From positions 15,737,485-15,801,484 of the forward strand of contig NC_088296.1 of the NCBI RefSeq assembly GCF_032854445.1: a stretch of 64,000 bases of DNA, written 5' to 3'. This DNA comes from Liolophura sinensis (lineage: Eukaryota > Mollusca > Polyplacophora > Chitonida > Chitonidae). The position numbers and the translations under genes are program-made. Under the pieces are notes generated by a model, which saw only the letters and a program-made list of their open reading frames with translations, made no database searches and was not told where the DNA came from. This document shows, piece by piece, positions 6,467 through 47,377 of this stretch; within the stretch, counting starts at the first letter, position 1; every line of letters starts with the position of its first letter.

Positions 6467-7456
6467 TGCTATTTGTAATGGTTTAAAGTTTTAACTGTCA
6501 CAATATTGTAAACTATATGAGCCCATGTCATGCTGTATAAATGAAAGTGAGTAACGCCTTCAGTTTTAAGTGGGCTCGTCTGCACATAAGAAAAAGATAG
6601 AGATGTGTATGGAGTAGTCAGTCGTCATTCGGTGTTCGTCATGTCGAAATGTGAGATACTGTGTTCTCAGCCGTCACTGGAAATGCTGAAATGTAAAGTG
6701 ACAGAAGAATAAAAGTGACAATGAAACGGAATCAGATTTTTTGATATAGTTCTTGGCTCCAGTGTCCATTATAGTTGTGTGGCGAACAGCTCTACAGAAG
6801 GACGGCAATGTTGATCATGTTGTTGTTGGTTTTTCATGGAGGGCTTTTTTGATCGTAAACAGGTCATTTTTTTTGTTCTGTGTTGTCTGAGCATAAAATG
6901 AGAGTTTTCGGTTCTTTTCAGGTTCCGCTATCAATCGTCGTGCAGTTGAACTTCCGTAGTTCTTATTCTCCGCAGCTTAACCACTATCAGCAGGTGTTAA
7001 ACTTCACGAGGACAACACATGCCGGTGATTCAAAAAGAGAAAATTCAAACAGGCAAAATTCACGATGACAAGCAAAACAGAACGGATAACGGAATCACAC
7101 GAAACACCTTTAAACATTTAGATCAAAATTGGCGTTGTTGAAGGCTTTTAGGTCACATGCATGGATGTCACAGTTGACTGATTTTCACGCGCAAAGTAGG
7201 TGTGTTTTCTGCTTTGTGTTTTGAAACTCTGATATTTTCGCCAATTCATCAAATGACGTGATACTCTGAGCCAAAACACTGTACTGATACATGGCGTTCT
7301 TAAAACTACTTTGAATTTGACAAATTTACAGTTCTACATTCCTTGTCTTGTAGAAAACTGAATTCCAGACCATCAAAAGAAATCTAAACAAATTCGATTG
7401 TCTCATAGGCCTAGCTTACAATTTACGAAGAACTGAGATGACGTATAAACGTCAAT

Positions 7457-7822
7457 TTACCTTTCTTCTCCAGAAACAGACGCCACAAATTCCTCCATTT
7501 TCTGCAGGTAATTATCAAGGTCCCGAAAGAGCAAGTAGACCCAGACGTCCAATGCGCCTGCGTGGTGCACCCGTCTCATCTGTGCCAGTTCTCGTACAAG
7601 TTGCGTGAGAGCCTCGATGTCGATCTGGACGGTCTCTTCCAGCGCCGCGTGCAATGTGCACAGAACGTTGTTAAGATGGCCGCGAACAAAACAGAGTTTT
7701 CTCTCGAGCGTATTGAGCCTGTGGTCTCGAAGGGCAATCTCATGTTGCTCTGCTTCATTCACAGACACGTAGAAACGTCTGAGATCATCCGCCATGAGAT
7801 GGAATGGTCTGTGATCCGTAGG
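7457..7822 (-). CDS. terminal coding exon of the cytokine-like gene (helices B, C, D)
   Basis: The exon follows the acceptor TGTTCCAG and runs in frame for 121 codons to TAA at 7459-7457. It encodes residues 144-264. Helix B begins near MADDLRRFY, helix C contains C187 and C198 in LERKLCFVRGHLNNVLCTL, and helix D contains W237 and Y248. Holding helices B to D in one last exon matches the CNTF/CLCF1 type. The stop sits inside AAG|GTAAAT, which also looks like a donor at 7461/7460, so an alternative C-terminus from another exon is possible. Ending just after helix D, as here, is normal for the family. Confidence 0.72.
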   Translation of the reverse strand, partial: PTDHRPFHLMADDLRRFYVSVNEAEQHEIALRDHRLNTLERKLCFVRGHLNNVLCTLHAALEETVQIDIEALTQLVRELAQMRRVHHAGALDVWVYLLFRDLDNYLQKMEEFVASVSGEER

Positions 7823-10800
7823 CTGGAACAGAGTAACAGTTAGGTATTTATTGTTTAGATTAGTTTGAATCCGACTTTATTAGCGGACTGATGGCGGTTT
7901 TAAGGCGTGATATTTAAGTACATACATGGTACAGCAGACTGCTCCAGACTGTAGCGAATTCTGAACTATTGTGTTGCTGNNNNNNNNNNNNNNNNNNNNN
8001 NNNNNNNNNNNNNNNNNNNNNNNNNNNNNNNNNNNNNNNNNNNNNNNNNNNNNNNNNNNNNNNNNNNNNNNNNNNNNNNNNNNNNNNNNNNNNNNNNNNN
8101 NNNNNNNNNNNNNNNNNNNNNNNNNNNNNNNNNNNNNNNNNNNNNNNNNNNNNNNNNNNNNNNNNNNNNNNNNNNNNNNAACTATTGTGTTGCTGTTAAG
8201 TGAAATATTCTTGGGTACGGCGTAAAACCGCAATCAAGTAAATAAACAATTAAAAAAAAGTAAGTAACAATCAAACCATAAACTTTACCACCGTCACATA
8301 AGGGAACTATTTTCTATGTATGGTGAGGGAATCAGACCGAACTCGCAAGGAACTACATTATACTTCGCCAGGTAGCCAACACATCTCATGACAGCAGCCT
8401 GTAACAGGCGAGAGCTGGGTTCGAACACACGTTCTCGTTGGCCCAGAACCATAAAGATGGCACAGAGTATAACGGTGACAACCACGACTTACCACGGACT
8501 GTTCTCTCAGATCTACCGGAAGTCTTGTAAGATTGACGACACTAGCTGCACCTGAGTAAGTGAGGTTCACTCGACTCTCCTAAAAAAAAAGATTGATTGA
8601 TTGTTGTTTAATGGCCCGGGCACTCAGCTGTTCAAGCCCGGAGCAAAACCCCAGGCTTTTGATAAGTTACTGACCAACTTTCTGACGACGTACCATTGGA
8701 CCGTCACCGAAAGTAATGTAATTAAGACTTACAGCATAGATAAAAAAAAACAAAAAAAAAAAAAAAAAACAGAGAACCGACGATAGTGTGATAGATGTCA
8801 AATGGTCACGAGTAACCGGCGAAATACGGCCTCTTTTTTTTAAATTTTAAATTTTAAATTTACCTCATTTAGTGTTTTATTCTAACTCTTCATGTAAATA
8901 AATAAATAGTAGCAAATTACACACCCTCTAGCACCATGGCTTAAGCAGAATTAGGTAAAAAAAATGTAGTGAGAATATATGCAATTTATTAGATGTTAAT
9001 AGTCTAGAATTACTCAAAACTTATAGCGGTTGTGAGACGCCTTGAGATCTTGACTTTCTGCTATTTAGAAGGACTTTGAGAATAACGACTCTTAAAACAA
9101 AGTATTTGTGTTGTACAGTGGCCACGGAAAAGAAATATTTACTTCTTGTTTGTTTTATGAAGTACATATGGTAAAATTAGAAGGGCATGCTTAAAAGTAT
9201 ATTATTCTCCGCCTTGCCAGGTAACACTGATACACAGTACAGAGGTATTTGGTATTGTTTTTATAAACGAAAACAGTTTTCACAAGAAGTATAGGGACGG
9301 AACTTGCGAACATGTGCTCAGTTTCTTTTTTTTATTCACATTCATAGCAATGAACTTTAAAAACGTAACAACACATTGTTTTATTGGCCCTCAGAGTTTA
9401 GGGACTACCTTAGACTGTACTGTGAGAGCAGGCATATGGGGCTGATTTCACAAAGACATCTCTGATTTAAGTAAAAATTTAAAACATTGTCACAATGTTA
9501 AGTTTTCGGCACTTGAAGTTGACATTTTGACACAGTTGTCTTAAGACAACATTGATGTGGCGGTCAAAATTTTAATTTACAGGAATCAAAAATAAGCTCT
9601 AAAATCATATTTCAAATGTTTGATTTCAGTCAAAACTGGCTTTTTTGGAATCGGCCCCTGTTTAATTGATTAATGCTCAACACCGACCGCAAAAACTTTC
9701 CTTTCCATGAAGCAGGTAAGGTTTATAGGTGGTTGAAAAATTAGCGCTCCTAGAGCTGCTGGAAAACCTTCCCACGTACAGCCGGAGAGGAAGCTATCAT
9801 GAGCTGGACTTGAACTCACAGCGACCGCATCGATGAGAGGTTTCTTTGTCATTATGCTGCACTAGGGCGTTAACCAACTGAGCCACGGAGGCCCCTGGCG
9901 CCCGTAGCGAACCATAAACCTTCCCTGGGTACATTACAACCCTCCTGACAAAGCCACAACAAAAGCAACAACGGCTAGATTCGAACATGCAACCTCACTG
10001 GTCAAAGGCCTGATAGTTACAACATTTCAACGACTAAACTATCTACACAGAAGGCTTCGAGAATAATATTTTACCTTTAGAAATATAAGTACATCTAAAC
10101 CTTTGAGGTTATGGTCAATGAAACTGGAAAAAAGTTTATGAAAATGGAACTTTGTTTTTAGTGAATGAACAAAACTGTGCCAATAGCTTTGGGTCTTTTC
10201 GAAAATAGACGACATATAAATCCTACTATTATGGAATTTTAAAACAAAACTCTATAAAGTGTTATGACCTGACACACAATATATGAACTGTAGAGCTCTC
10301 ACGGCTGTAGCAGTCAGGGATAGGTTCCGATTAATTGTCATAAAATAAGACTAAAGATTGTAAAAAATAATTTAGTTTTAAAAAAAAATTTTTTTCATTG
10401 CTAAAGTAAACTAAATTAGCTAAAGTTTGAAATTATATATCAGTCTGAAACTTTTTTCTCAATGCACTTTACTTTCTCAATTTTTTGAAATCATAAATAA
10501 CTTACATAAAGGGATTTCAGCTCTCTCACTGCTTGGCGCAAGTAACCCAAGTTCCAGTGCAACGCAAACGATGTCGCTAGAGTTGTCGCCCTTGTTCCAG
10601 GAGGAAGTCTCGTGACGTTGCATGGCGTGACGGACTCGTGGGTCGCCTCAAATGGGTCTCTGCCAGCCTGGTCATGACATCTGTGACGAGAGTTAGCTCC
10701 ATGGCGACGATCCCTCAAAAACTGAACTATAGGCGGATAACTTCCGAGAAAAAATCCGGACGCGGACGACGATGTGAGAAAATGGTTTGTTATAATGCTT

Positions 10801-12596
10801 AGCGCTAAAAGAATCCAAAAGTTTCCTGGGATGAAAAAAGAAAAAAAGAAGAAAGAAATTAAAGAAAATAACCCCTAATTTCCCATAAAGCCAAGAATTT
10901 AACTTCAAACAGGACATGAACTCAAAGAGATCATGAATCCAAACAAGGAAGCATCGTGTTCATTTTTATTATATTTAACAGTAATAAGGGCAAAGCTAAA
11001 ACTCCTCAAAACTAAAGTAAGTCAATCATTTTAAAACAGTTATAAGCCAGATAACAGAAAATAATAATGAATATACAGTCAAATGTTTGACTGATAATTT
11101 GATAAATCTGACTCTTAGTTACCAATCACTCCATCGATTTAACACATGTAACATTAACCCTTTCCAAGATTCCTCGTAATATACTAAATATAACCTTAAA
11201 CAAGAAATTCACAGACTAACTGGGCAAAGTTAATCTTAACTGTTTCCCGGATCTACTGAACAATTCCAATAATAACACGTAGTTTCACACATACACTCTA
11301 TTCTTCATTTTGGATACCAATTTTAATTGTCAACTTGTTCCAACAAGACCCAACTTAATTGTTTCATTGACTAAGCAAACAAGACCCAACTTAATTGTTT
11401 CATTGACCAAGCAAACAAGACCCAACTTAACTGTTTCGTGAACCAAATGAATAAAACTAAACTTAATTGTTTCATAGAATACGTGAACAGAAGACCAAAC
11501 TTAATTGTTCCATGGATTAAGTGGACAGAAGTCCAAACTTAATTGTTTCATGGATTAAGTGAACAGAAGACCAATCTTAATTGTTCGATGGATTAAGTGA
11601 ACAGAATACCAAACTTTTATTGTTTCATGTATTAAGTGAACAGAAGACCAATCTTAATTGTTCGATGGATTAAGTGAACAGAAGACCGGACTTAATTGTT
11701 TCATAGATTAAGTGAACAGAATACCAAACTTAATTGTTTCATGGATTAAGTGAACAGAAGACCAAACTTAATTGTTCCATGGATTAAGTGAACAGAAGAC
11801 CAAACTTAATTCGTGGAACAAATGAACAAAGCCAAACATTTTATTATCAATTTTTTTATTCTCTTTTAACGTCTTGGAGGGTATTTTTTCTATAAACACG
11901 AAATCGAAAAATCATAATGCTTGAATATATGCGATAGTTCTGCGTCATATTGGTGGAGGGCAAGTGGTCTCCAGGAAACATCACAAGGGAACACCGTCAA
12001 CTATATCGCTATTAAGAACCCAAAACATAGTGAATTTAAAAAAAATTCCCGTCATGACTTAGAGTCCAGCTATAAGTCCAGCTGGTTTGTTCTCCGGTCG
12101 TACATGTGAAGGACTGTGAACAGCCTGCGGATTGTCGTGAGTTTCCCCGGGGCTATGCCCTCTTTTCTCCAACCATAAAGCTGATCGCCGTCGTAAAAGT
12201 GAAATATTCTCGTAAAATACTAATAAAATAATTACATGGCTAGAAAATTTCCCCTATGAGAATGAAACTGGTCTTATGTTGGTGTGATTTAACGATTAAT
12301 CATTCACTAATCAAATAAAGCGCATTAACAACTCTTCTGTACAGCTTATATAGAAATCTAAATTCCCGCATATTTCCTAAACGTACATATAATATTTTAA
12401 ACATACATGTACTATTTCTAAGGGGAAAATATCTTCTACACTTACAAGGTAGCTTACACTGGATTTCCGAATCAGAGATGGTAAATACCAATAAAACTAC
12501 CTCATATTCCAAAACTCTAAGCACATGCAGACAAGGATCAAATAGTAGTGAAATCATAAAACCTCTATACTTACTGAAACCAGGAATAGGTGACAT
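7457..12596 (-). CDS. secreted helical protein, candidate class-I cytokine (CNTF/CLCF1-like), four coding exons
   Basis: The join of 12596-12575, 10825-10506, 8579-8493 and 7822-7457 encodes 264 residues with intron phases 1, 0 and 0. Residues 1-30 form a signal peptide: a short polar start, a hydrophobic core FWILLALSII, then a Ser/Ala-rich cleavage region. Sequons lie at N77, N119 and N130, and cysteines at 57, 76, 187 and 198. Amphipathic helices are expected at about 90-118 (A), 152-176 (B), 179-206 (C) and 229-259 (D), with a further helical stretch near 207-228. A long A-B loop contains RLPVDL. The helix D pattern LFRDLDNYLQKMEEF resembles by eye the closing helix of CNTF, CLCF1 and cardiotrophin-1, whose precursors are about 200-225 residues. 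The family role would be signalling through a gp130/Dome-type receptor. Signal peptide, splice sites and phases are seen; the family is inferred. It could be another four-helix secreted protein. Confidence 0.72.
7980..8179. other. assembly gap of 200 N
   Basis: A run of exactly 200 N lies in the last intron of the cytokine-like gene. The 16 bases AACTATTGTGTTGCTG occur on both sides, directly against the gap, so the flanks may overlap and the true gap may be shorter, absent, or an unresolved SINE insertion. A SINE tail begins just to the right. Confidence 0.98.
8195..8250 (+). mobile_element. SINE1 tail next to the gap
   Basis: AAGTGAAATATTCTTGGGTACGG followed by CGTAAAACCGCAATCAA is the 3' end of SINE1. 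The head is lost in the N gap, so an intronic SINE1 may be what broke the assembly. Confidence 0.75.
8493..8579 (-). CDS. coding exon 3 of the cytokine-like gene (A-B loop)
   Basis: This 87-base symmetric phase-0 exon lies between a T9 acceptor ending TAG and the donor GTG|GTAAGT. It encodes 29 residues (115-143), the end of helix A and the first part of the A-B loop. Two sequons, N119-L-T and N130-L-T, lie 11 residues apart, then RLPVDL. Because it is a multiple of three and in phase with both neighbours, it could be skipped without a frameshift, giving a form with a short A-B loop. Confidence 0.65.
8590..8700 (-). mobile_element. SINE4-like fragment
   Basis: Shares TTGATTGATTG, CCGGAGCAAAACC and AAGTTACTGACCAACTTTCT with the copy at 27905-28048. 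Sits directly upstream of exon 3 of the cytokine-like gene. Followed by an A-rich run at 8742-8770. Confidence 0.45.
8831..8863. repeat. AAATTTT simple repeat
   Basis: Five repeats of TAAATTT. Confidence 0.7.
9438..9660. mobile_element. MITE in intron 2 of the cytokine-like gene
   Basis: GGGGCTGATTTCACAAAGA at the left faces the complement of TTTGGAATCGGCCCC at the right, imperfect terminal inverted repeats about 220 bp apart. Confidence 0.5.
9753..9894 (-). mobile_element. SINE1 fragment (tRNA head and part of body)
   Basis: Holds the reverse of the SINE1 head up to GCCACGGAGGCCCC and the body up to CTGCTGGAAAACC; the tail is missing. Lies in intron 2 of the cytokine-like gene. Confidence 0.8.
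10506..10825 (-). CDS. coding exon 2 of the cytokine-like gene (signal peptide core, N-terminal region, helix A)
   Basis: This 320-base exon is open through 106 codons in one frame. It follows a strong acceptor: a pyrimidine tract of about 30 bases ending CATCCCAG. It ends at TTTAT|GTAAGT. It encodes residues 8-114: the signal-peptide core, a basic Arg/His-rich stretch at 45-58 with a dibasic RDRR that could be a processing site, Cys57 and Cys76, the sequon N77-V-T, and helix A with W98 and the pattern YLRQAVRELKSLY. GC content is higher than in the flanking introns. An alternative acceptor at 10722/10723 (TATAGTTCAG, phase 0) would give a shorter exon but would drop the signal peptide. Confidence 0.7.
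11335..11815. repeat. minisatellite, 36-39 bp unit, about 13 copies
   Basis: Tandem copies of ACCAAACTTAATTGTTTCAT followed by GGATTAAGTGAACAGAAG. The left copies form a second subtype (GACTAAGCAAACAAGACCC). It lies in intron 1 of the cytokine-like gene. Confidence 0.9.
12120..12216 (+). mobile_element. SINE1 fragment (3' part)
   Basis: GCCTGCGGATTGTCGTGAGT, the proline-like GC block and GTCGTAAAAGTGAAATATTCT are SINE1 body and tail. Confidence 0.7.
12575..12596 (-). CDS. coding exon 1 of the cytokine-like gene
   Basis: The exon holds ATG plus six codons and one base, then a perfect GTAAGT donor. The ATG has A at -3 and is the first in its frame after a TGA near 12702, so it is the natural start unless another coding exon lies upstream. 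The exon reads MSPIPGF, and the leftover A joins GA of the next exon to make Arg8. A coding exon this small, ending before the hydrophobic core of the signal peptide, is common in helical-cytokine genes. The 5' UTR runs to higher coordinates and may be spliced at TTTGTTCCAG, just upstream of the ATG. Confidence 0.6.
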
Positions 12597-38882: not shown

Positions 38883-41800
38883 TCACTTAAAAATTTTCCG
38901 CGCGAACCTACGCAGCCCATTCAAAATTCGCCTACCCCTTGATCTTCGAACAGGCGAATCAGAAGGAGAATGATAGGACAATTCGTCATGGCTTCTCCCC
39001 CCAGAAGCGTTGAAGACCGCGTCATCGTAAGCGGGCGGAGGATTGGAAAGGTACTCCTCTCCGGGTGGTCCCCAAGGTAGCTGTAAAGACAACCTGTTAT
39101 TGACTCTATGATCTTGAAAACTTGCATAGTCGAAGTGGTCTTGGTGAACGGATATGGGTCTAACGGCATCGTCATACGAAGGCGGCATTTCCGGTAGGCC
39201 TGGCATCCCGACGGGAAATAGATCAGTGTAGGAAGGCGGGTGCTCTAAACCGTAATCTTCCAGGTTGAGAATTTCGAATTCCAGGAAATCCTGCTCCGTT
39301 CTACTTCGGACTGGTAGCGGCGGACGCCTGTGATGATCGGGCGTTTCTAACGTGCCAGATTCCCGTGTGGATCGGCTGCGAACTTCGAACAACGTCGAAA
39401 TGGACAGAGGATGTTCGTCGTCGGATGAGTCGCCGAGACCGGGATATGGCGAAGGAGGACGGTCACACATTCGGCTCGGCGCAGTCACTGGCAGCAGCAG
39501 CTCCTCTTCTTCTTCGTCGTCACTGCTGTCCAAGAACCCGTCTTCATCGTCGGCGTCCCCATCTTGCGCCGTAACAACACCAAGGCGTGTCAACAGATCG
39601 TCCATTGAGATCGTATCGCTTGAATCCTCGCTAGAACCCGCGTAGTTATCTCCTGAGTCCGACTCATCCTCAGTCTCCGAATCGAAAGAGTCAGAGTTGC
39701 CGAGATTTGGACGTTCCTCCATGATGCAATCCTCCGAGGAGGAATCACTGTCAAGAGAATCTGAACTAAAGCTGTTGTAAAAATCCTCATGAAAACGTTC
39801 TGCTGTACGATCAGAAAAAGAAGTCTTGGGAACTGTCACAGCTTCGTCCACAGATAGGTTCATGGGTTCATCGCCTGTGGATTCCCGGGTTTTGGTGTTT
39901 GCAGCTTTAACATTTTCGTAAGTCGCTAAAGCGACGGACTGCGCTTCCGATGAACTTTCTGCTGGTCTGCACTGCATGTTTTCAAACTCAATCCTATTCT
40001 CTGTGGTGCGAGGCAAGTTTTCGTAGATGATGGCTGGGTGCTCAGTCATCAAAGTGCTCGCCAACTGACTAACCCGATCATCACAACGGGCAACGGGCTG
40101 TGAACAATTCTTCATGTGCGGTTCACTGAGAGATCTGATCAGGAGAATCTTACCGCTCAAACTTGCACTACGTCTTGGAGGTTGTGGTAAAGAGTATGAA
40201 GGGTCCGACAAACGTCGTGCAAATCGTTTCACTCGGTTACTCGAAGGGTTGCGTCTTTCAACATCGTCTGCAGTAGGCTTTGCTATAGAGGCTTGGTTGC
40301 GTTCAGATATCTGGTTGAGAAAGTCAGGCACATTGTTTTTTGTTCTGGAAGACCCAAACCTTGCATGCTTAATAAAAAGGCCAGAGTCCGAAACGGGTCG
40401 TGTGTAACGCCATCCTGTTTCGCGTGACATGGGCGATTCGAACTGGCCTCGCCTCTTCGACGGACAGTTCATGCGGCACAATCCCACGAAACTTGGCGTG
40501 CTTTGGCTGCTTCCCAAGGCATTTACAACCCGGAGATTTTCTGCAGTTTGAGAGGTAGGGAAACTCAGACCGGGTTGTCTTCTTACAACAGGATAGGCAC
40601 TGCGGAGTGATGAGACACCAAGGTTCACTTTACTTCCTGTTTTAACGCCCTCGCGATGATCATCTTGTCTACGACCCCACCACGAGCTACTTCCAGGCAT
40701 TGCGGAGAAGCTATTACTTTGTCTTAGCATGTACGGTCTTCCGTTTTCTGTCTGCGTTTGCCGTGAGGTACAAGAACATCTCGGACTTCCACTTTCAAGG
40801 TGACCAGAGCTGGATTCCCCTGGGAAAAAGTTAGACCGCTGTTCAAGTTCGTGAAGGCTTAATGGTCGTTTAGTGCGTCGGCACGTATGAAGAGGCTCTG
40901 ATGACTGCTGCCAGCAGCAAAAACGATCAGCAGACACCGGTAAAGCCTGAGGACGATTAGAAACTGTAGGAGCACTTTGAAGTGGTCTCTGTGGAGACGC
41001 TCCTTGCACTGGGTCTAAAAAGCCTTGCAGGCTTACGAAGCGCTCTGCTGGAGTGGAAGAACACTTATAATTCTGGGAGCTTCGTGATTTAACCATACCC
41101 CGATTCCGATCAAAATTTTGTGGAAGCCGGGGTTTTACATGTTGAATCAAACGTGCTTCTCGGTCTGCGTTCTTGATCTCAGTGTTCCTGGACAAGTCGT
41201 CTATACCAGCAGAATGACCTGATGGTAGGACCTGGGGGGCTAATGAATTTGACCCTGTTGAAGATGCGCTTGAATCTGAAAAAACGTCACCCATATTGTC
41301 AAAATCAACATTTGCAAAAGGCGTCACATTGAGGGCACTGACAGAACTCACAGACAATCGCGAAGTGTCATAAGGAGACATGGCAAGATTGTTTAGCTTG
41401 ACATGTGTGTCTTCAGGCCTTACAGGAGCACCTGAATTTTGTACTGGGGTAGAGGTCCCATAATCTCCATCGGTAACACTATCAGGCAACACATCCCGTA
41501 AACATCCAGTCTTGTTGCTGTTCAATATTTCAGAGGATGGACTCAGCATGGCTTCATCTTTCTGAGATGCATCATTGAGCAAGAAGTCAGATTGAGATTG
41601 AGGACTGCAGACTTTATCCGAGTCCCTCAAGGCGAGGTACTGGGTAGAACCAAAGCCGTCATCTTCCTCTGAGAGAGAGTCAATGCTGCCTTCGCTAAGC
41701 ACAACATTGGGAGAGGCCTCAGATGATGGCGAGGGAGTTTCTTCGGAAGATTCCATTTGTTGTTCAGCAGTCCCATACTTCAGATAGAACTGCCAGGCAC

Positions 41801-42373
41801 TCTTTGACTCACATGGTGTAGGACAGTCTACAATGGGGCCCTTTAAGATAACCAGATCTTGTGATCTGGAGCTGCCAGTAGAAGTTGTAGAGAATGGAAT
41901 GGTTTCAGTGTTATTATTTGGAGATGTTATGAGAACTATCTTTGATGATTTGTCCGTAAGCCCTTGACCGGAAGAAGATCCAGCTGAACTCGATGGCCTA
42001 TTGGAAGAACTGTCCATTACCCTGACAGACGATAATTGGTCTGTGCCAAGGGAACAAGGTCTTCTGCCATTGAATGCATCAATATTTACATACGCATTTT
42101 CCGGAAGTGTGTCCAGGGATAGAACCGGTTTCTTCCTAGGCATGGGATCTATAATCGTACTTGCATTGACATACTCGTTTTCAGTGGCACTTTGGCTCTG
42201 ATGGTAGTTCACGCCTTGACCGTTCTGTGGGGTTATGTTAGAAAGGTTCCTGTGTCCCTCCATACTTCCCGGTGGTTGCACACCTGACCCGTCTCTCTGA
42301 ATCCCTCTATCCACTTCAACCACAGGGTAAAAGTCACAGGGAGCTTCCAAGTCTGAGGCACTGTCTGTATTGC
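38883..42373 (-). CDS. main coding exon of the adaptor-like gene
   Basis: An uninterrupted frame of 3491 bases ends in TGA at 38885-38883. The frame can be read back to a TTG at 42386, but that is intron sequence: the acceptor AG lies at 42375/42374 and the exon starts with GC, completing a Gly codon. The frame is far longer than chance allows at this composition and its GC content is clearly above the flanks. Open frames on the opposite strand here are shadows. Confidence 0.93.
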
Positions 42374-43339
42374 CTGAGGATTGCAAACAAATGTATTTTT
42401 AACAACATAAGTCAAAAGCAAAGGCAAACTATTGAAGAAGAAAGACTTGGGCAGACTGTGGCGCACAAGGGAAACGATTACATCATAGGAAGTGAACCCA
42501 CAGCAGTGAGTGTTTGTAATATGTAAACTTAACTGATGAGTGAGTGAGTGAGTGCTTGGGGTTTAATATTATACTCAACAATTTTTCAGTTATATGACGA
42601 CGAGGGAATCCTTAGAGTGCATGTAATGCGCCTCTTTGTTGCAGGATGGATTTCCACCGCTCTTTTATCTACTGCTGCTTCCCTGAGACGACTTACCAAA
42701 GGCAAGTAAGCCGCCACGCCCAAGCCATTATACTGATACAGGTAAACCAGTTGTTGCACTATCCCCTTCATGCTGAACGCCAACCTAGGAAGTCACAACT
42801 TCCTCTTTTAAGGTCTTAGGTGTGATATCGGTGCTCCCGAAGCGGACTGATGAAACTGATGACAAACAGGCCTAGTCACTTTTCCTCAGGTATGTTTTTT
42901 TTTATAGATGTTCATACAGGTAAATGCTTAAATACTAGTATGTAACAATACACACCTCTCTCCCCATGGCTTAGGAAGAATTTGGTTAAAAAAAAAAAAC
43001 GCAATTCATGCACTGGTCTAGACTTAGTCAGATGTTATCGACATCCAAATTAACAAACAATAGAATAAAACCAATGCAAAGTGTGTCAAAAGCTGAGTAC
43101 GGGAACAATTAGAGTCTCATTTCATTTCTTCATTTCAACAGGTAAAAAAATTAAGCATTCGGCCACAATGGTCTGTGTCATGAGAAAACTTTCAGCCGAA
43201 CTCAGCAGGAGTCAGCAGGAGTATTAAAAGATTGATGAAAAGAACTTGCAAGGCAATACACAGCATGCTATACTCCTTACTCTGTATTACTATTATTTAT
43301 CTTACCATTGTAAGTATCAGAGCTCCACCTCTTTTCCAT
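38883..43339 (-). CDS. large disordered adaptor-like protein with YxN and PPxY motifs, two coding exons
   Basis: The join of 43339-43306 and 42373-38883 encodes 1174 residues in phase 1. The first exon reads MEKRWSSDTYN plus one base, with a TGA upstream in frame; the donor is AATG|GTAAGA and the acceptor of the big exon is AATCCTCAG. The protein is rich in Ser, Pro and acidic residues, with no membrane segment or folded domain that I recognise. YxN motifs, which bind Grb2-type SH2 domains when phosphorylated, lie at Y79, Y106, Y795 and Y830. RSLSEP (758-763) is a 14-3-3 mode-1 site and PMNLS (848-852) resembles a CtBP ligand. An acidic, Ser-rich tract covers about 885-972. PPLPVRSR (1029-1036) is an SH3 ligand. 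PPxY motifs at 1057, 1085 and 1124 should bind WW domains of NEDD4-type ligases. The last 16 residues are basic and amphipathic. This points to a signalling or trafficking scaffold. I do not recognise the family, and upstream alternative exons are possible. Confidence 0.85.
42540..42845 (-). mobile_element. SINE2, 5'-truncated, in the adaptor-gene intron
   Basis: Reverse SINE2 lacking its tRNA head. ACTGATGA flanks it at 42532-42539 and 42846-42853, so it inserted already truncated. Confidence 0.88.
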
Positions 43340-45648: not shown

Positions 45649-46226
45649 GTATTGTGGTGAGTACTAGTCCAGTAGAGTTGTGATGAGTACTAGTCCAGTA
45701 GAGTTGTGGTGACTACTAGTCCAGTAGAGTTGTGGTGAGTACTAGTCCAGCAGAGTTGTGGTGAGTACTAGTCCAGTAGGGTTGCAATGAGTACTAGTCC
45801 AGTAGGGTTGTGGTGAGTACCAGTCTAGTAGGGTTGTGGTGAGTGATAGTCTAGTAGGGTTGTGTTGAGTACTAGTCCAGTAGGGTTCTGGTGAGTACTA
45901 GTCCAGTAGGGTTGTAGTGAGTACTAGTTCAGTAGAGTTGTGGCGAGTACTAGTCCAGTAGAGTTGTGGTGAGTACTAGTCCAGTAGGGTTGTGGTGAGT
46001 ACTAGTCTAGTAGGGTTCTGGTGAGTACTAGTCCAGTAGGGTTGTAGTGAGTACTAGTTCAGTAGAGTTGTGGCGAGTACTAGTCCAGTAGAGTTGTGGT
46101 GAGTACTAGTCCAGTAGGGTTGTGGTGAGTACTAGTCTAGTAGGGTTGTGGTGAGTACTAGTCCAGTAGAGTTGTGGTGAGTACTAGTCCAGTAGTGTTG
46201 TGGTGAGTACTAGTTCAGTAGAATTG
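45649..46226. repeat. 26-bp minisatellite, left part
   Basis: About 22 copies of GTTGTGGTGAGTACTAGT plus CCAGTAGG. Five units (130 bp) at 45881-46010 are repeated at 46011-46140, a higher-order duplication. Confidence 0.95.
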
Positions 46227-46485
46227 ATTTTGATTTTTTTGATTGGTGTTTTACGCCGTACTCATAAATATTTCACTTATATGATGGCGGCCAGCATTAG
46301 GGTGGGTGGAAACCGGGCAGAACCCGGGGGAAACCCACGACCATCCGCAGGTAGCTGGCAGAGAAAGCGGCCGGAGAGAAAGCCAGCATGAGCTGGACTT
46401 GAACTCACAGCGACCGCATTGGTGAGAGACTCCTGGGTCATTACGCTGCGCTAGCGCGCTAACCAACTGAGCCATGGAGGTCCCC
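46227..46485 (-). mobile_element. SINE1, full length, inserted in the minisatellite
   Basis: Reverse SINE1 with its tail at the left. CAGTAGAATTG (46216-46226) and CAGTAAAATTG (46486-46496) are the target duplication with one change; the target is a minisatellite unit. Confidence 0.92.
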
Positions 46486-47377
46486 CAGTAAAATTGTGGT
46501 GAGTACTAGTCTAGTAGGGTTGTGGGGAGTAATAGTCCAGTAGTGTTGTGGGGAGTACTAGTCCAGTAGGGTTGTGATGAGTACTAGTCTAGTAGGGTTG
46601 TGGTGAGTACTAGTCCAGTAGGGTTGTGGTGAGTACTAGTCCAGTAGGTTTGTGGTGAGTACTAGTCTAGTAGTGTTGTGGTGAGTACTAGTCCAGTAGA
46701 GTTGTGGTGAGTACTAGTCCAGTAGGGTTGTGGTGAGTACTAGTCCAGTAGGGTTGTGGTGAGTACTAGTCCAGTAGATCTGTGGTGAGTACTAGTCCAG
46801 TAGGGTTGTGGTGAGCACTAGTCTAGTAGAGTTGTGGTGAGAACTAGTCCAGTAGGGTTGTGGTGAGTACTAGTCCAGTAGGGTTGTGGTGAGTACAAGT
46901 CCAGTTGAGTTGTGGTGAGTACTAGTCCAGTAGGGTTGTGGTGACTACTAGTCCAGTAGTGTTGTGGTGAGTACTAGTCCAGTAGGGTTGTAATGAGTAC
47001 TAGTCCAGTAGAGTTGTGGTGAGTACTAGTCCAATAGGGTTGTGGTGAGTACTAGTCCAGTAGAGTTGTGGTGAGTAGTAGTCTAGTAGTGTTGTGGTGA
47101 GTACTAGTCCAGTAGAGTTGTGGTGAGTACTTGTTTAGTAGGGTTATGGTGAGTACTAGTCTAGTAGTGTTGTGGTGAGTACTAGTCCAGTAGATCTGTG
47201 GTGAGTACTAGTCCAGTAGGGTTGTGGTGAGTACTAGTCTAGTAGGGTTGTGGTGAGTACTATTAGTCCAGTAGGGTTGTGGTCAGTACTAGTCCAGTAG
47301 GTTTGTAGTCAGTACTACTCTAGTAGGGTTGTGGTGAGTGCTAGTCCAGTAGGATTGTGGTGAGTATTAGTCTAGCA
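46486..47377. repeat. 26-bp minisatellite, right part
   Basis: About 34 copies of the same unit as on the left of the SINE. Each unit holds GTGAGT, like a splice donor on the plus strand, and ACTAGT. Confidence 0.95.

Follow-up and report, generated by a model that had tools for sequence, protein, structure and literature searches.

Does the minus strand of this locus carry a spliced gene that no single reading frame reveals, and is its product a helical cytokine? The question has some weight in a mollusc: the extracts of a 2026 survey (PMC13203501) describe molluscs as having IL6R, JAK and STAT together and no IL-6-type ligand, and suggest other ligands.

Four exons on the minus strand and their product

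The window, the whole stretch of 64,000 nt that was analysed (contig C2, 15737485-15801484), carries on its minus strand four exons that splice in frame to give 264 residues and a TAA stop. The exons are 22, 320, 87 and 366 nt long, all introns are GT-AG, and the intron phases are 1, 0 and 0; the hidden four-exon gene with matching phases, as originally predicted, does join. The features of the gene and its product are as follows.

12575..12596, minus strand: proposed exon 1, seven codons (MSPIPGF) and one further base, with a donor in phase 1; one of seven candidate first exons
10506..10825, minus strand: exon 2, with the leader, two cysteines and one sequon ahead of the helix, and predicted helix A; phase 0 donor GTAAGT
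10767..10823, minus strand: hydrophobic leader, residues ~9-27, from hydropathy
10509..10601, minus strand: helix A (residues 83-113), predicted with low confidence from exon 2 by itself
8493..8579, minus strand: exon 3, putative A-B loop with two sequons; phase 0-0
7980-8179, no strand: 200-N gap inside intron 3, separating exon 4 from exons 1-3
7457..7822, minus strand: exon 4, with predicted helices B, C, a short helix and D; stop TAA
7634..7810, minus strand: residues 148-206, expected helices B and C, a single continuous helix in the exon 4 model
7568..7618, minus strand: short C-D loop helix of the exon 4 model, residues 212-228
7472..7558, minus strand: helix of the exon 4 model where D is expected, residues 232-260

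The acceptor of exon 2 outranks 99.9% of all minus-strand AGs in the window (exon 3, 97.6%; exon 4, 94.5%), and GTAAGT is the donor of both exon 2 and exon 3. A scan of both strands for exon candidates of 250-450 nt with good splice sites, whose cut-offs were fixed once the model was already known, gave three on the plus and four on the minus strand; the acceptor cut-off was 0.80, and the exon 4 acceptor, at 0.79, lies slightly under it. The exons fare unequally. Three stand out beyond chance: of the seven candidates exon 2 alone has a leader, no candidate but exon 3 preserves the frame between exons 2 and 4, and the place of exon 4 has the second-highest coding score in the window. Exon 1, however, which supplies residues 1-7 in the original prediction, is one among seven first-exon candidates within 5 kb. 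We conclude that the gene itself is likely to be real. Intron 1 also contains a 38-base tandem repeat of 12.4 copies (11345-11811).

The product is likely to be a secreted helical protein. The signal peptide that had been proposed is seen as a 10-residue stretch with a mean Kyte-Doolittle value of 2.78, a measure of composition only, just past the exon 2 acceptor; the three expected sequons are at N77, N119 and N130, and the cysteines are at 57, 76, 187 and 198. Exons 2 and 4 were each modelled alone by single-sequence AlphaFold2. The exon 2 model (pLDDT 61, pTM 0.27) has helices over the leader, after it and at 83-113, and the last of these, helix A, ends one residue ahead of the second intron. 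The exon 4 model (pLDDT 70, pTM 0.38; the four remaining models score 47-54) lacks the B-C turn, residues 148-206 forming one helix with a pLDDT of ~90. Helices A to D are therefore predicted, exon by exon, in the order originally claimed, but with B and C fused. Were the chain to turn within the polar residues around 175-178, a long loop would follow helix A, a short link would connect B to C, and a second long loop, containing a short helix, would lead to D, an arrangement that matches the up-up-down-down cytokine pattern; as modelled, the unbroken, high-scoring helix counts against a cytokine. Searches with the exon 4 model returned no cytokine, whether by Foldseek (six chains up to E 10, none at 0.001) or by VIA-align (seven chains, the best, Z 5.4, to a long helix).

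A gp130-like receptor in the same genome and the choice of reading

Genome-wide searches covered an assembly of 609,464,459 bases in 632 contigs. A gp130-type receptor, which the original prediction had proposed to look for in related genomes, has a gp130-like counterpart encoded in this one. A weak PF09240 match on C7 (E 9.5) led, on inspection, to a gp130-like gene in which it is a single exon; five exons of this gene were assembled.

C7:10121053-10121328, 10122413-10122545, 10134420-10134604, 10136061-10136218, 10137099-10137261 (loci L007 and L008): receptor exons, GT-AG introns of phases 1, 2, 1 and 0

Together these exons encode an Ig-like domain and two CHR domains and end in YWSEPSE, a WSXWS-like motif. 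In the PDB, gp130 is the best match (E 2.3e-15), with further class I receptors ranking after it, and the Pfam matches are IL6Ra-bind at 26.4 bits (cut-off 24.3) and fn3 at 42.6 (cut-off 25). Further FN3-like stretches were recognised by eye downstream of the CHR domains; the membrane segment was not found. Beyond the FN3-like stretches lie two large repeat arrays that are open in several frames (C7:10144369-10148433 and 10154203-10158119; loci L009, L010 and L011). Another PF09240 match, on C12 (E 1.67), was read at its locus and shows nothing receptor-like. Two STAT_alpha matches above the cut-off are located at C1:88.91 Mb, one of them reading through a TGA; the same search also matched E. 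coli, under the cut-off. The search of the genome for JAK with PF18377, run without a positive control, gave no match. Since molluscan gp130-like receptors have already been reported (extracts of PMC13203501), we regard the receptor as context rather than news. A gp130-like receptor of Ciona is described, in the part of the paper available, as having a splice structure similar to that of GP130 (PMC1963337).

We suggest, tentatively and at a little under even confidence, that the chiton gene is best explained as encoding a divergent long-chain (class I-like) four-helix cytokine. We prefer it to each alternative because the receptor is present in this genome, the gene layout agrees with it and the protein is claimed by no other family. 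The loop pattern, the intron layout and the presence of the gp130-like receptor gene together with STAT speak for a cytokine role. With the exons modelled singly, a long loop separates helix A from B/C, and a loop that contains a short helix separates B/C from D. The first intron lies within the leader in phase 1 and the later introns are in phase 0; a phase 1-0-0 layout with the first intron in the leader is also found in the GH, IL-6, LIF and EPO genes. Our search of the literature on intron phases of vertebrate class I cytokine genes found no paper. A class I-type cytokine, as had been predicted, is thus plausible on loop lengths, phases and receptor gene, but it finds no counterpart by sequence, the protein having no significant match to any cytokine.

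If the gene does encode such a cytokine, the leader would be cleaved off and helices A-D would form an up-up-down-down bundle whose long A-B loop is glycosylated; the product is probably secreted, mostly helical and N-glycosylated. Disulfides may join the cysteine pair ahead of helix A to the pair in helix C. The ligand would bring together gp130-like receptors of the type found on C7 and so turn STAT on. It is possible, though we are less assured of this than of the cytokine reading as such, that the protein is the first class I helical cytokine of a lophotrochozoan and serves as the ligand of the molluscan gp130-like receptor, for which none is known. No molluscan class I ligand is reported in the open-licence literature, among the matches listed. 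If our proposal is true, the ligand and its intron layout would be no younger than the ancestor shared by protostomes and deuterostomes, a ligand-receptor pair would predate the chordates, and what activates the molluscan receptor would become directly testable.

The chief competitor is a real gene whose secreted product is helical or a coiled coil but of another kind, such as a structural or carrier protein particular to the lineage, and unlinked to cytokine receptors; we consider this doubtful, but a serious contender. It would account for the continuous helix at 148-206 and is in keeping with the weak Pfam matches to the coiled-coil families CCDC92 and HAUS-augmin3 (E 0.04-0.11), which all, however, fall under the curated cut-offs. 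Up to E 10, with filters on, such coiled-coil noise is all that Pfam returned for the spliced protein or the exons. NCBIfam gave no match with either, and the PDB sequence search gave no match below E 0.2. A paralogue search of the chiton's own genome recovered the gene itself and one chance match (E 1.14) among the best candidates scored. Prokaryote genome contigs and viral contigs, examined as a check for stray mollusc DNA, gave 38 and 4 pattern matches, none of which was confirmed. Pairwise tests against 13 cytokines and two other helical proteins, which have weak power as cytokines of different branches often score ~0, placed LIF first (score 43, equalled by 8 of 300 shuffles) and GH next (38; 18 of 300), and the two non-cytokines, ferritin (39; 56 of 300) and apoE (39; 60 of 300), equal the level of the second-best cytokine. 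Against a structural or carrier protein, the leader, the long-short-long loops and the intron layout suit a cytokine, and the genome has a receptor without a known ligand.

Coding signal, strand and the assembly gap

The codon model was trained on 28,452 nt from the same genome, namely the longest ORF at each of 25 kinase loci; these ORFs, chosen by length, are presumed to be the kinase exons. Exon 4 scores 21.1 bits, exon 3 1.7, exon 1 0.7 and exon 2 -4.1. Exon 4 is a coding place: the best minus-strand stretch, 7463-7831 (22.1 bits), nearly coincides with it, and only a 1171-codon ORF ranks higher in the window. On the opposite strand, an antisense stretch (7502-7837) reaches 22.8 bits, and the plus-strand frame at 7442-7840, free of stops over 133 codons, equals exon 4 in codon score. 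Codon usage, as scored by the kinase-trained model, thus gives no support to exon 2 and does not distinguish the strand of exon 4 from its antisense frame. We have therefore assigned the strand of exon 4 by its splice sites, and exon 2 by its splice sites and leader.

These values bear on whether the model is wrong, exon 4 being part of a different gene or coded on the plus strand, or exons 1-3 having arisen by chance. The antisense frame and the negative score of exon 2 would agree with such an error, as would the choice among seven first exons and the 200-N gap that cuts exon 4 off from the rest. We nevertheless consider it unlikely, since the leader occurs in exon 2 alone of the seven candidates, exon 3 has no frame-neutral competitor, the phases agree, and the edges of the gap have bases in common. 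At those edges (region 7964-8195) 16 identical bases are found, with no third occurrence in the window; 46 of 200,000 random pairs of places in the window share at least 12 such bases. The shared bases are in keeping with assembly pieces that abut, or with short repeats on either side of a small insert.

The 1171-codon frame with the top coding score runs uninterrupted at 38886-42398 on the minus strand; it has no Pfam match and carries three PPxY-type motifs near its C-terminus. The Pfam scan of 10 neighbouring ORFs in the window put none above the cut-off, and hence no synteny argument can be drawn. A minisatellite array with a 26-base unit occupies ~1.7 kb at 45652-47372.

The LIF branch and other helical cytokines

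The original prediction was more specific than a class I fold, placing the protein with CNTF, CLCF1 and cardiotrophin-1. A phmmer search with human LIF retrieves, below E 0.1, LIF only, so that an absence of matches is weak evidence, and for this reason we built a family profile. It comprises LIF (human and mouse), OSM, CNTF, CLCF1 and CT-1, each non-LIF member being left out in turn. The members left out score 21.9 (OSM), 38.2 (CNTF), 35.7 (CLCF1) and 52.3 bits (CT-1), values reached by none of the 280-294 reported pattern-keeping shuffles. The chiton protein scores 3.8 bits, which is matched or exceeded by 48 of 976 reported shuffles, and its reversed sequence scores 1.2. An hhalign run in global mode yielded a 2-column alignment and was discarded. 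F-x-x-K, the site III signature with which helix D begins in the CNTF/CLCF1/CT-1/LIF/OSM branch, is absent from the entire chiton protein. Pfam searches of the protein gave no row up to E 10 for the families of the CNTF/LIF branch, the CNTF family (PF01110) that had been singled out for comparison included; the PF01110 and PF01291 profiles run against the genome, without a positive control, came back empty. The profile score, the missing F-x-x-K and the lack of a Pfam match together leave the assignment to this branch unsupported. True membership of it is very improbable, even though LIF leads the pairwise comparisons and, by eye, chiton VRGHLNNVLCTL is like LIF LRGLLSNVLCRL and OSM LGLRNNIYCMAQL, RGHLNNVLC like LIF RGLLSNVLC and TDHRPFH like LIF TDFPPFH, for the best pairwise LIF alignment falls elsewhere and leaves the helix C look-alike uncovered.

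What the chiton protein has in common with LIF/OSM and CNTF/CLCF1/CT-1 is a leader (CNTF, which has none, excepted), size, helicity and the motifs seen by eye, in a genome that also has a gp130-like receptor. It differs from them in lacking profile similarity and F-x-x-K and in having its putative A-B loop on a separate 87-nt exon. With GH/PRL, EPO/TPO and IL-6/G-CSF it shares the phase 1-0-0 start of the gene and the long-short-long loops; it has no significant pairwise score with any of them, GH being the best, and their genes have more introns than the chiton gene.

Among invertebrates, GH-like and other type-I helical cytokine candidates are described from amphioxus in the available portion of a 2022 review (PMC9010856). 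They too would be divergent helical cytokines of an invertebrate, but of a chordate one, and the likeness is by description only, as it is for the insect Upd ligands of Domeless, which are protostome ligands of a gp130-like receptor. The oyster CgIFNLP is reported as a molluscan helical cytokine with a link to JAK/STAT (extracts of PMC9756803 and PMC8218723); at ~15 kDa and class II-like, it is set apart by description from the class I-like protein we propose here. Type I interferon genes of fish and amphibians have four phase 0 introns according to the part of the paper available (PMC4929537), and we set a type I interferon aside on intron phase, as the chiton gene has three introns, the first in phase 1.
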